Assembly (NCBI RefSeq): GCF_003352465.1
Contig: NZ_CP031153.1
Coordinates: 1,168,465 to 1,232,464 of the forward strand
DNA from: Kordia sp. SMS9
GTDB taxonomy: Bacteria > Bacteroidota > Bacteroidia > Flavobacteriales > Flavobacteriaceae
Direction of reading: 5' to 3'
Length of the DNA stretch: 64,000 bases
The position numbers and the translations under genes were made by a program. The notes under the pieces are model-generated. The model saw only the letters and a program-made list of their open reading frames with translations, made no database searches and was not told the origin of the DNA. Positions 59,279 to 62,211 of the stretch are shown here, one piece after another. The first letter of the stretch is position 1, and every line of letters starts with the position of its first letter.

Positions 59279-60094
59279 TTAATTTTTCTGTCGGAGTGCG
59301 TTTTCGAGCAGTACAATTTTGCTTTCTAAATCGTGCAATCTGTCATATACATCTACGGGTTCTGGCATTTGTTTGGACGCAAACATCGTTACATACCAAA
59401 CTTCCATGATTTCTTCTGCATTGATGGTGTATGTTGGATAATTTCCATCTTTATTGTCAGACTTTAAAATAAGCTTTCCGCGTTCTTCTATTCTGTTGAT
59501 AACGCGTTTCAGCACAATTCCGTCATTACGACTTACTATCACATATACGCGACCATCTTTTATATCTTGCAAATCTTCTACGTATTTTCCAAATACCAAA
59601 TCGCCATCAAAAAACGTTCGAACCATAGAGTTTCCTTGCACTTCAAAGCAGCGATACGTTCCATTAGTTAGGTGCGGCATGCTAAACGAAGGCAAGGTTT
59701 CAATATAATCGGCATCGCCGTAACCATCTAAATATCCTGCGCGTGCTTTTATGGGCACATACACAACATTTTCTTCTCCTTCTTGATTTACAGCTACTAC
59801 TTGTGGAATTCCAGCATATGTTTGAAGTTCGGGTTTGCTCGATTTAAACATTTGTGAACTTTTACCAAATAAATAATCTGGATTGATATCAAACTCATTG
59901 ATGATACTCGTTAGCAAATCGTAGCCTGGTTTGGTTCTTTTTCTTGATCCGTCGGATTGTGGCCTACCATTCGTAATACTGTCTATCGTTGTGCTAGTGA
60001 CACCTATTCGCTTGGAAAAAGAATTATTATTCAGTCGAAAATGATCAATGATCTGCTTTATTTTTTCATGTATTCCTTCCATATAACGCTCCAT
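59279..60094 (-). CDS. S24-family self-cleaving-type phage-like repressor
   Basis: 271 residues (or 267 if the start is the fifth residue). The N-terminal helix-turn-helix domain (about 8-75: NNSFSKRIGVTSTTIDSI) is followed by a linker with a LexA-like cleavage pair Ala119-Gly120 (KARAGY). The C-terminal S24 protease domain has the Ser156 (QGNSMV) and Lys196 (IVLKRV) dyad 40 residues apart, as in LexA and phage CI-like proteins. The C-terminal 20 residues form a short coiled coil (DRLHDLESKIVLLENAL). By family knowledge DNA damage could trigger self-cleavage and derepression. It is divergent from a small HTH gene, as a phage CI/Cro pair would be. The region upstream has repeated TGTAAT operators. 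Confidence 0.88.
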   Translation of the reverse strand: MERYMEGIHEKIKQIIDHFRLNNNSFSKRIGVTSTTIDSITNGRPQSDGSRKRTKPGYDLLTSIINEFDINPDYLFGKSSQMFKSSKPELQTYAGIPQVVAVNQEGEENVVYVPIKARAGYLDGYGDADYIETLPSFSMPHLTNGTYRCFEVQGNSMVRTFFDGDLVFGKYVEDLQDIKDGRVYVIVSRNDGIVLKRVINRIEERGKLILKSDNKDGNYPTYTINAEEIMEVWYVTMFASKQMPEPVDVYDRLHDLESKIVLLENALRQKN

Positions 60095-60140
60095 AATTTA
60101 AACATTTTACAAAATATTTCTGCTTTATGTTTTAAATAAT

Positions 60141-60174
60141 CTGTAATTTGTTTATATTTGTACTGTAATTTGTT
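60141..60174. promoter_or_regulatory. Operator 1: two CTGTAATTTGTT copies around a -7 box
   Basis: CTGTAATTTGTT stands at 60141-60152 and again at 60163-60174, 22 bases apart. Between them is TATATTTG (60153-60160), a plus-strand -7 box that would drive the small HTH gene at 60352. Repressor bound there would block that promoter. The similar arrangement at 60771-60814 supports a common binding protein. Confidence 0.55.
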
Positions 60175-60351
60175 GCTAATATACGAATTTTTATTGAAAA
60201 TCAAACATTTGTGAGGATAATTGTCGGTTTTATTCTTCATAAATACATAAAAAGCGATACAATATAGACTGACGGTTACGTATTTGAATGTTAAAATTCG
60301 CATACGATTTAAAAAAAGTAGAATAGATAGAACACCATATAATAGAATACC

Positions 60352-60507
60352 ATGAAAAGAAGTAAAGAACTATTAGACAGAAGAAAAAAATTCATTCACA
60401 ACTACGTAGAAGACAATTCTGCAAAACAAATGAAAGTGATTATCAACGAATTGGTTGACAAACTGTTCATTTCAGAAAAGACGATATACAACATTTTAAA
60501 GCAATAA
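60352..60507 (+). CDS. 51-residue HTH-like protein, divergent from the S24 repressor
   Basis: ATG at 60352, TAA at 60505-60507. The peptide is lysine-rich and ends in a helix-turn-helix-like segment (INELVDKLFISEKTIYNIL), the pattern of HTH resolvase or LuxR-like recognition ends. It is too short for standard gene calls. It has a strong terminator (60550-60582). Position and direction opposite the repressor suggest a Cro-like or activator role, but no family is recognised. A structured 5' region of about 185 bases lies between its promoter and start. Confidence 0.6.
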   Translation: MKRSKELLDRRKKFIHNYVEDNSAKQMKVIINELVDKLFISEKTIYNILKQ

Positions 60508-60549
60508 TTCAGCTAGTCACTCAATATGCATTAAAAGATGTATGTCTGG

Positions 60550-60582
60550 AAAACTCCTTTCTTGCCAGAGGAGTTTTTCTTC
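60550..60582 (+). terminator. Terminator of the small HTH gene
   Basis: AAAACTCCT (60550-60558) pairs with AGGAGTTTT (60569-60577), with T after. Confidence 0.85.
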
Positions 60583-60613
60583 TCAACAGCATAAACGCAT
60601 CCTGCAGTGAATA

Positions 60614-60775
60614 TTGTTATTGTACTATGAAAAAAAGTTCTTAGGGTTAATTATCATTCTTCATAGTTGCAATACGTATTCAAAAAATCCCTTCTTCGTG
60701 AAGGGATTTTTTATAGCATATTGTAAAAAGCACACATTCAAACAAAAAACAGAAAAATATATATTATTAGTGTAA
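60614..60775 (+). other. Possible lipoprotein-like ORF disturbed at a 7-A run
   Basis: The only ATG (60627) leads to a stop after five codons. The neighbouring frame reads KKFLGLIIILHSCNTYSK, a lipoprotein-like signal with the box LHSC, and stays open until 60775. It can be reached only from TTG codons (60614 or 60620) or by one extra A in the run of seven at 60630-60636. Since the strong hairpin at 60682-60712 lies within this frame, coding is doubtful. Confidence 0.2.
60682..60712 (+). terminator. Strong terminator upstream of the endolysin promoter
   Basis: A 13-bp perfect stem AAAAAATCCCTTC (60682-60694) with GAAGGGATTTTTT (60700-60712). It insulates the lysis-like genes from the HTH transcript. 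Confidence 0.85.
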
Positions 60776-60814
60776 TATGTTTGTTTTATATTGTAATATG
60801 TTTTATATTTGTAC
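60771..60814 (+). promoter_or_regulatory. Operator 2 and promoter of the endolysin-holin genes
   Basis: TGTAATATGTTT stands at 60771 and again at 60792 (21 bases apart), the second directly before TATATTTGTAC (60804-60814). TTG (60781-60783) with 20 bases to TATATTTG fits the Bacteroidota promoter. The sequence from TGTAAT to TTTGTAC is nearly the same as at 60142-60163. The transcript would begin near 60818 and have a leader of about 275 bases. Confidence 0.6.
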
Positions 60815-61092
60815 TCGCTTTTCTAATGAATAGTACATCATTTTGTACGATTCGTATATTATAATACACTGTTGAGAAGAATCTTAATAGCATGCAAAAC
60901 CTTATTCTGGTTAAGAACATATATAAAAAAGACGTTGCATCATATCTAAGTTTTTACTCTCAAATTAAATTCCAACATTTTCATGAATATATAAACCTGC
61001 ACTGACAATTTCAGTCGCAAAAGGCAATTTTTTGCTCTTTTTTAAGCGATACAAGCAAGCTATTTGTCAGACAATAAAAAAAAGTTAAAACT
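60815..61092 (+). other. Long leader before the endolysin gene
   Basis: 278 bases. A 37-codon ORF (60892-61005) is possible but unsupported. Close to the gene, GCAAAA (61017-61022) pairs with TTTTGC (61030-61035) and is followed by TCTTTTTT, a weak terminator-like form; CTGACAA (61002-61008) can pair with TTGTCAG (61074-61080) around it. This could be an attenuator, but the stems are short. Confidence 0.3.
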
Positions 61093-61527
61093 ATGAGCTT
61101 GATTCAAAAAGCGTTATCACAATATGGAGTCACCGAAGTTGATGGTAAAGCTGATAATCCCCAAATTATACAATATTTTGAAGTTTTAGGATTCGACACT
61201 AATAAGTTACACGATGAAACTGCTTGGTGCAGTGCATTTGTAAATTGGGTTTCTAAAACCGAAAAGTATTCATACAGTGGAAAATTAAATGCTAGGAGTT
61301 GGTTGAATGTAGGTGAATCTACAGCAGCACCCAAACAAGGAGACGTAGTCGTTTTGTGGCGCGAATCTCCTAGTAGTTGGAAAGGACATGTCGGTTTTTT
61401 TGTAAAACAAACCAAGCGATATGTATACATTTTAGGAGGCAACCAAAATAATAAAGTTTCTATTAAAGCCTATCCTAAAAACAGAGTTTTAGATTATAGA
61501 AAACTATCAAAATATGGAGAAGATTAA
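61093..61527 (+). CDS. TIGR02594-type cell-wall hydrolase (endolysin-like)
   Basis: 144 residues, no signal peptide. The NlpC/P60-CHAP-like fold is clear from C46 in AWCSAFVNW, H99 in GHVGFF and N117 in LGGNQNN, the catalytic set of the family TIGR02594, which is common in prophages. It should cut peptidoglycan peptides. The lack of a signal means it needs a holin, and such a gene begins within its 3' end (14-base overlap, 61514). It is the first gene behind operator 2. Confidence 0.85.
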   Translation: MSLIQKALSQYGVTEVDGKADNPQIIQYFEVLGFDTNKLHDETAWCSAFVNWVSKTEKYSYSGKLNARSWLNVGESTAAPKQGDVVVLWRESPSSWKGHVGFFVKQTKRYVYILGGNQNNKVSIKAYPKNRVLDYRKLSKYGED

Positions 61528-61954
61528 ACCATATTTCTTTTGGTTATTTGCCTTATTGGCGCCTATTGTTTCTGTAATGTTAACCGTTGGTTTTTTAATC
61601 AGTGTCAATTTTATTATCGAAACATACGCAGCTATTAAGAAAAATATTCCTATTAAGAAGGAACGCATTGGAAATACAATTTCCAAGTTTTTTATCTATA
61701 ATTTGGTTGTTATGTCTGCCTTTTTATTGGAAAAATATATTGTAAATGAAATTCCGTTTATGCGCATTATTGCTGGATTTATTGCAATTGCTGAAATTAA
61801 ATCCATCCTAGAGAATTTTAATAGCATCTACGGAATCAATCCGTTTAAAGCTTTGGTCAGATTAATTAAAAAAAAGTCTATTGATACTTTAGAAGAAACT
61901 ATTGATGCACTTGTAAATCATAAAGATCAAGATCAAGAAATTCAAAAAAAATAG
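61514..61954 (+). CDS. Holin-like membrane protein
   Basis: 146 residues. Hydrophobic helices near 8-36, 58-75 and 82-97; the segment with KKERIGNTISKFFIYNLV and AEIKSILENFNSIYG resembles the phage holin family (Bacteriophage holin, pfam05105) by eye. The C-terminus is charged and cytoplasmic (DTLEETIDALVNHKDQDQ). It overlaps the hydrolase by 14 bases, the typical endolysin/holin coupling. It should open the inner membrane and let the endolysin through. Confidence 0.7.
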   Translation: MEKIKPYFFWLFALLAPIVSVMLTVGFLISVNFIIETYAAIKKNIPIKKERIGNTISKFFIYNLVVMSAFLLEKYIVNEIPFMRIIAGFIAIAEIKSILENFNSIYGINPFKALVRLIKKKSIDTLEETIDALVNHKDQDQEIQKK

Positions 61955-61963
61955 AAACACTTC

Positions 61964-61994
61964 AAGAGCCTTTGTCTTCCATACAAAGGCTCTT
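61964..61994 (+). terminator. Strong hairpin between holin-like and small membrane-protein genes
   Basis: A 12-bp stem AAGAGCCTTTGT (61964-61975) with ACAAAGGCTCTT (61983-61994). The T tail is weak, so it may only reduce transcription into the next gene or protect the mRNA end. Confidence 0.55.
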
Positions 61995-62010
61995 ATTAAC
62001 TTGTATCCAC

Positions 62011-62211
62011 ATGAAAAAAATACAATTATCTACAGATCGAATATTACTGATTGTAACGTTGTTATTACTTTGGTATATTCATTTAGTAAACGCTTGTGAG
62101 AGTGAAACAGATATACAATTAAAACCCAACTTAACAATTGTAAACGAAGAATCATCTTCAATAAAAACATATCATTCCAACGTAAAAAGAAGAAGGTTTT
62201 ATAAAAAGTAA
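62011..62211 (+). CDS. Small membrane or lipoprotein behind the holin-like gene
   Basis: 66 residues from the ATG at 62011. One hydrophobic segment (about 11-28, ILLIVTLLLLWYIHLV) ends in VNAC, near to a lipobox, then an acidic-polar stretch and a basic tail KRRRFYKK. This could be a small lipoprotein in the manner of an Rz1-like outer spanin, but the family is unknown; a simple single-span protein fits as well. It follows the holin-like gene by 56 bases with a hairpin between. Confidence 0.5.
   Translation: MKKIQLSTDRILLIVTLLLLWYIHLVNACESETDIQLKPNLTIVNEESSSIKTYHSNVKRRRFYKK

Follow-up and report, generated by a model that had tools for sequence, protein, structure and literature searches.

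A 64-kb window of the Kordia sp. SMS9 chromosome (C1:1168465-1232464 of the single-contig 5.48-Mb genome, G000) holds a locus encoding an S24-type repressor (S24), a small helix-turn-helix protein (HTH51), a peptidoglycan hydrolase (LYS), a holin (HOL), and a truncated small protein (LIP); all five open reading frames (ORFs) lie inside the window. This locus probably supplies the regulator and the lysis arm for a toxin-release system that Flavobacteriaceae encode on their chromosomes; the system would be repressed by S24, coupled through RNA, and similar in its working to a colicin lysis gene or a type 10 secretion system. An initial annotation, made from the sequence of the window, had proposed a domesticated lysis cassette under S24. 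Operators shared between promoters, a structured leader on the lysis mRNA, and complementarity of that leader to toxin mRNAs of relatives go beyond what it reported and carry the reading given here. C1 coordinates refer to the genome, G numbers to genomes, L numbers to fetched loci, and all other positions to the window.

Operators Shared by the Repressor and Lysis Promoters

The repeat TGTAAWWTGTT occurs six times in the window, with 1.0 expected, and five of these copies lie at the S24/HTH51 and LYS promoters. Motif search located them as follows.

60101..60111, - strand: operator TGTAAAATGTT upstream of S24; AACATTTTACA is retained in most relatives
60142..60160, + strand: operator TGTAATTTGTT fused to -7 element TATATTTG, HTH51 promoter
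60164..60174, + strand: operator TGTAATTTGTT, third of the intergenic set
60771..60781, + strand: operator TGTAATATGTT, upstream copy at the lysis promoter
60792..60811, + strand: operator TGTAATATGTT fused to -7 element TATATTTG, lysis promoter

The fused element conforms to TAnnTTTG, the -7 promoter element known in Bacteroidota. The whole 5.48-Mb genome holds exactly two matches to the composite operator-promoter pattern (TGTAAWWTGTT..TATWTTTG), one at the S24/HTH51 promoter and one at the LYS promoter. Across 11 Kordia genomes, 30 of its 31 matches fell inside the island, and a reversed-pattern control gave 1. In other genera (Psychroserpens, Bizionia, Winogradskyella, Lacinutrix, Tenacibaculum and others), a relaxed motif, TGTAAWWTGWT, was present in two to three copies in 18/18 LYS promoters, with 0.01-0.04 expected; most of these operator-bearing promoters belong to loci without S24 next door. 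The repressor-lysis link of the initial annotation therefore holds in a stronger form, that of shared operators beyond adjacency alone. We infer that S24 is the protein binding the TGTAAWWTGTT repeats, because the operators co-locate and occur at S24's own promoter.

Conserved Regulator and Lysis Genes

The genes at these promoters are the following.

59282..60082, - strand: S24 (CI/LexA-like) repressor; conserved start ATG 60082, which is 12 bp within the listed ORF (59279-60094)
60352..60507, + strand: HTH51, a 51-amino acid (aa) Cro-like small helix-turn-helix protein, identified by ORF, conservation and substitution rates
61093..61527, + strand: LYS, a TIGR02594 NlpC/P60-CHAP peptidoglycan hydrolase (endolysin), identified by profile, alignment and AlphaFold model; no signal peptide seen
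61514..61954, + strand: HOL, a PF05105-type holin, identified by profile and family scans

In profile searches S24 matched PF00717 (E 1.6e-10) and the phrog_4 repressor (E 2.3e-23). The residues already singled out in the initial annotation, Ser156, Lys196 and the Ala119-Gly120 pair, were invariant in 10 orthologs. The divergently transcribed helix-turn-helix protein was likewise upheld as a gene of 51 codons, with a ratio of nonsynonymous to synonymous substitution rates (dN/dS) of 0.03-0.06 against other Kordia and a weak HTH_22 match. LYS, described earlier as an endolysin-like hydrolase without signal peptide, scored 100 bits against TIGR02594 (cutoff 70.6), and its C46, H99 and N117 were invariant in 29 sequences. 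It models as an NlpC/P60-CHAP fold (AlphaFold predicted local distance difference test score, pLDDT, 89), with NlpC/P60 hydrolases and CHAP phage lysins as the best PDB matches. The holin assignment also stood: PF05105 was matched by 27/27 scanned HOL family members (best 2.1e-13), with the window copy slightly below the cutoff at 21.8 bits versus 22.2, and the LYS and HOL ORFs overlap by 14 bp (61514-61527) as first described. The closest phage holins are only ~27% identical to HOL.

LYS and HOL were present in 11/11 Kordia genomes in the same order and, wherever contigs show it, at the same site between the M1 peptidase gene and rnpA, which supports both the domesticated cassette and the gene order that the initial annotation had asked to see in relatives. 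Its ordinary chromosomal flanks were confirmed as the M1 peptidase gene and rnpA, with a ctp-type protease gene also nearby. No surrounding prophage was found: no phage ORFs, whether for structure, packaging or replication, were seen by eye in the 64-kb window or in C1:1231000-1262000, a 31-kb stretch that begins inside the window and extends 29.5 kb beyond it. The genome-wide search for phage-type genes covered the sheath only. The dN/dS values of the window's LYS, HOL, HTH51 and S24 against other Kordia were 0.02-0.17 (0.017 for S24 against L030; the S24 value against L028 was left out as out of frame). Given these values, the lysis and regulator unit is maintained, and the window's regulator and lysis genes are still under purifying selection.

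Outside Kordia the distribution is narrow. The holin was found in 8/299 sampled Flavobacteriaceae and an S24 ortholog in 15/299; the system, suggested earlier to be one of Bacteroidota, is not general to that phylum. All eight holin genomes had the S24 ortholog, compared with 7/291 others (Fisher p 4e-12, without phylogeny correction). Where both lie on one contig in other genera, S24 and LYS-HOL are 1-15 kb apart with variable genes in between.

Toxin Cassettes under the Same Operators in Relatives

A close gene of ~1150 aa (at least 62% identity) was present in 9/11 Kordia genomes. Eight Kordia genomes have a third composite operator ~5-8 kb past LYS, which, where read, directly precedes the ~1150-aa gene; it was not found there in the window's genome and G003, and G007 is cut by a contig end. 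The four fully read Kordia cassettes run from the ~1150-aa gene to a ~680-aa gene and a ~270-357-aa gene. In two of the four, a WHH nuclease or YwqJ deaminase domain was found in the product of the last gene, with SUKH immunity genes coming next. In Psychroserpens-type genomes the ~1150-aa family sits immediately on the other side of the S24 promoter; beyond it come large variable genes and immunity-type genes, and then the lysis genes. Toxin domains of deaminase or glutamine-deamidase type are encoded by two of the variable genes. Kordia and Tenacibaculum islands also contain tail-fibre-like and phage-collar genes whose products share the N-terminus ETLKxYFETGDKPT.

These cassettes change one part of the initial annotation and support another. 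Its terms "orphan" and "stand-alone" are not supported, since this regulator and these operators control further genes in relatives, namely toxin-immunity cassettes or genes of tail-fibre-like type; the locus is an orphan only in the window's genome and G003, because this cargo is missing there. Its suggestion that something bacteriocin-like is released is supported.

The ~1150-aa protein gave no noteworthy profile match in Pfam, NCBIfam, PHROG or PDB, and its AlphaFold model (four sequences, pLDDT 35) was not used. By eye, its relatives on viral contigs also lie near lysis-type genes of other kinds. One Gram-positive-looking IMG/VR contig (L160:4843-9812) has a ~1141-aa relative and a 387-aa ORF, with a holin-/amidase-like pair not far away. 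In a Tenacibaculum bin (L050:2224-4920), the S24 operator faces two DUF2589-like ORFs instead of the ~1150-aa gene. The SMS9 genome itself encodes a divergent ~1161-aa paralog at C1:2042082-2045567 (L157:8083-11568), with no S24 operator and a different downstream gene set.

A Structured Leader on the Lysis mRNA

The lysis promoter is followed by a long leader with the following parts.

60812..61092, + strand: lysis 5' leader RNA; covariance-model match at 60836-60985
60872-60886/60947-60963 and 60892-60897/60935-60940, + strand: leader helices P1 and P2, respectively, from the covariance model and folding
60898-60912 and 60828-60853, + strand: leader hairpin P3 and a further hairpin, respectively, from the covariance model and folding

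A covariance model built from Psychroserpens-type sequences only found matches at LYS in Kordia and Tenacibaculum. Double changes were present in 23/26 pairs, and covariation was 0.486, versus 0.159 when shuffled and at most 0.094 when slid, in an alignment fitted to the model; a plain alignment unfitted to structure gave 0.243 versus 0.162. When all leaders were placed in one plain alignment, RNAalifold returned no structure; it emerged only through subgroup alignments and the covariance model. The case for it rests on covariation, because single-sequence folding energies were unexceptional (z of -0.57 for the window, -0.26 for L060 and -1.96 for L049). A search of five loci against Rfam gave nothing at the leader (E up to 1) and, elsewhere in the loci, only weak matches, all under gathering scores.

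The window's genome has one copy of the leader RNA. An extra copy, with operator and seed, stands ahead of a collar gene in K. zhangzhouensis (L035:4264-4403), and further copies precede other island genes in L059 and L109. The family-wide RNA scan scored few candidates per genome, so that its counts are a lower bound. Aquimarina-type lysis leaders (the LYS upstream regions of L052-L068) show a conserved CCCGTAGTTGCAGTA, ..ACGCTTTTCAACG.. and a CCTGCAGG hairpin in the S24 operator's place.

Complementarity between the Lysis and Toxin Leaders

The 5' end of the lysis leader contains one further element.

60816..60829, + strand: CGCTTTTCTAATGA, the 5' seed of the lysis leader, which complements toxin mRNA leaders in relatives

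In 12/12 genomes, namely those with both leaders readable, the 5' end of the lysis leader showed perfect complementarity of 12-15 nt to a sequence ahead of the ~1150-aa start codon; shuffles averaged about 7. Seed and target show compensatory changes between clades, with UGA/UCA in Kordia and CA/UG in Psychroserpens-type genomes. The target forms the loop of a small hairpin (ACUGU..ACAGU) and lies 42-61 nt before the start codon in 11/12 genomes. The cassette-free genome G003 carries a decayed form of this otherwise invariant seed (CACTTTACTACTGAA in place of CGCTTTTCTAATGAA); in the window the seed is intact. Tenacibaculum lysis seeds are divergent (CGCUUUCUAAC, GCUUAUCAAC), and no targets for them were found in the stretches examined, outside which the toxin genes may lie.

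In L050, a site ahead of the two DUF2589-like ORFs retains a 10-nt match to the lysis seed. Leaders of operator-bearing transcripts have in common a box, TCAAACATTTG, located at 60199-60213 in the window and recurring in the leaders of Psychroserpens and Tenacibaculum LYS and in those of the ~1150-aa genes; in some cases (L053, L063, L112) it forms an inverted repeat, TTCAAAC..GTTTGAA.

Proposed Mechanism and Alternatives

The scheme we propose builds on operators, leader structure, complementarity, gene families, synteny and purifying selection, and its steps are predictions. In the resting cell, S24 would sit on TGTAAWWTGTT repeats overlapping its own/HTH51 promoter, the lysis promoter and, in most relatives, the toxin promoter. 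A signal, most likely DNA damage, would cause S24 to cleave itself, and all target promoters would then open together; HTH51 may behave like Cro. The toxin complex would build up, the holin would then free the cytoplasmic hydrolase, and the cell would burst and let the toxins escape. The structured leader probably times (delays) lysis or couples it to expression of the toxins, given that the toxin mRNA leader offers a pairing partner for its 5' end. In the window strain, the cargo is gone from the island and the conserved regulator-lysis unit remains. A more specific version, to which we would not give quite an even chance, has one S24 repressor governing both an undescribed ~1150-aa toxin-complex family and the holin-endolysin pair, with seed pairing in the leader allowing the burst only while toxin is made.

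Several observations weigh against a toxin-release system controlled by S24. The toxin cassette is absent from the window's island; this follows from the acetyltransferase gene and rpiB, the cassette flanks in relatives, which here adjoin. Seven of the 15 genomes with an S24 ortholog lack LYS-HOL, so that S24 may have another role, and at some loci (L069, L070, L072) HOL has no adjacent LYS match. Aquimarina-type LYS promoters mostly lack both the operator and the modelled leader; S24 control is therefore not universal. The target motif resembles the HTH51 coding start in Aquimarina, and for this reason the toxin leader has the look of a duplicated S24/HTH51 promoter that has lost its coding part to decay, apart from the target motif. 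The complementarity could be a shared DNA site.

This last point leads to an alternative without RNA pairing, in which the 5' end of the LYS leader and the toxin leader share a protein's DNA-binding site in opposite orientation. Such a site would likewise co-vary between both promoters, and the similarity of the target to part of the HTH51 gene would fit it. The antisense orientation in 12/12 genomes, a target placed in a hairpin loop and distant from the promoter (11/12), and a seed formed by the first bases of the predicted transcript make this account doubtful to us, and pairing the likelier one. A further alternative sees here a domesticated suicide or vesicle switch without cargo. Lysis itself would be its function in this strain, whether to release DNA, vesicles or nutrients or to kill infected or damaged cells, and the relatives' toxin link would have been left behind. 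The window's genome and G003, where the cassette is absent and LYS-HOL intact, agree with such a switch, as does the continuing selection indicated by dN/dS in the window. We regard it as unlikely, though a serious contender, given toxin cargo with the same operators in 9/11 Kordia genomes and the fetched Psychroserpens-type islands, and the window's retention of a seed that fits toxin mRNA.

The search for tail-like genes elsewhere in the genome, suggested by the initial annotation, found two clusters resembling contractile injection systems, 0.4 and 3.1 Mb from the lysis locus. The lysis unit might free such extracellular systems: both clusters have sheath, spike and baseplate-like genes, and a sheath gene was found in 6/8 holin genomes versus 44/291 (p 4e-4, without phylogeny correction). 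We consider this improbable, because no composite S24 operator lies near the clusters (a lone 11-mer lies near one), two holin genomes have no sheath, and the operators mark the toxin cassette instead. Finally, the locus could be read as a phage remnant of lysis and immunity genes, in decay and no longer functional. This reading would account for the cI/cro-like layout of S24 and HTH51, for the phage families of LYS, holin and collar, and for the truncated LIP. It is very improbable in view of the 11/11 conservation in Kordia under strong purifying selection, the maintained operators and leader structure, the ~27% identity to the nearest phage holins, and the lack of phage genes seen nearby.

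Comparison with Known Release Systems

Type 10 secretion systems are non-phage holin/endolysin/spanin sets that release toxins by lysis, exemplified by Serratia ChiWXYZ and Yersinia entomophaga YenLC, with lytic toxin release shown for YenLC (PMC10847048). The present system is similar in having a holin and an adjacent peptidoglycan hydrolase outside a prophage and linked to large cytoplasmic toxin genes; co-encoded cargo is found in 9/11 Kordia and in other genera, but not in the window's own island. It differs in its S24 repressor with its own operators instead of RoeA/ChiR, in having no clear spanin pair (LIP is no more than a candidate and is truncated in the window), and in its leader RNA, polymorphic toxins with immunity, and Bacteroidota host.

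Colicin E2-type operons combine toxin, immunity and lysis genes under LexA, with release timed post-transcriptionally (PMC5916893, PMC5157957). The system as found in relatives would share with them toxin, immunity and lysis genes under one self-cleaving-type repressor, and post-transcriptional timing is suspected here. The WHH, YwqJ and deaminase toxins with SUKH occur in relatives and are absent from the window's island; of the SOS-type repressor, the S24 dyad, the Ala-Gly pair and the operators are present, and cleavage in an SOS response is predicted. Unlike colicin operons, the system is chromosomal, with separate toxin and lysis promoters and a dedicated repressor, and has a holin-endolysin pair in place of a lysis lipoprotein and a structured leader with an antisense seed in place of CsrA control.

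Lambdoid immunity and lysis regions also have an S24 repressor divergent from a small helix-turn-helix protein and overlapping endolysin and holin genes. Here, in contrast, no replication, packaging, head or integration genes were seen, the chromosomal location is stable, and the lysis genes bear the repressor's own operators. TcdE is a holin of the PF05105 family, to which HOL also belongs, and it too neighbours large toxins; HOL differs in its pairing with a TIGR02594 hydrolase and in its Gram-negative host. Unlike a lysis gene of an extracellular contractile injection system, LYS-HOL neither lies inside such clusters nor shares the composite operator with them.

Lysis-dependent toxin release is known from Proteobacteria, as type 10 secretion and as colicin release. 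The literature searched, in which few subscription papers were covered, yielded no description of it in Bacteroidota. If the present reading is correct, it would add a dedicated repressor with a very small and sharply defined set of target sites, and a new structured leader RNA with predicted pairing between lysis and toxin mRNAs. How a suicidal producer times its own lysis, an old question, could then be tested directly in culturable marine strains.

Other Features of the Locus

The remaining elements of the locus are as follows.

60548..60582, + strand: terminator-like hairpin following HTH51, T-rich on its 3' side; read from the sequence and not recovered by scan
60682..60712, + strand: second terminator-like hairpin, AAAAAATCCCTTC..GAAGGGATTTTTT; read from the sequence and not recovered by scan
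61964..61994, + strand: hairpin with a 13-bp stem immediately 3' of HOL, from hairpin scan and folding; the probable operon end
62011..62211, + strand: LIP, truncated remnant (66 aa), by comparison with a ~203-aa protein of relatives

The fifth gene, first described as a small membrane protein or lipoprotein, is present, but its start is ATG 62011 and not TTG 61972, and comparison with relatives shows it to be a truncated, 66-aa form of a membrane-anchored protein of ~203 aa. Further coding homology was looked for downstream in the window, and none was found. The full-length LIP of relatives, which had no family match in profile searches, is a candidate spanin. Tail-fibre-like genes have likewise gone from the window's island. 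The two clusters resembling contractile injection systems lie at C1:4329654-4349412 and C1:1650065-1669526 (L078-L080) and include PAAR-like genes besides those named above. Collar-domain-like genes follow the cluster at 4329654-4349412.

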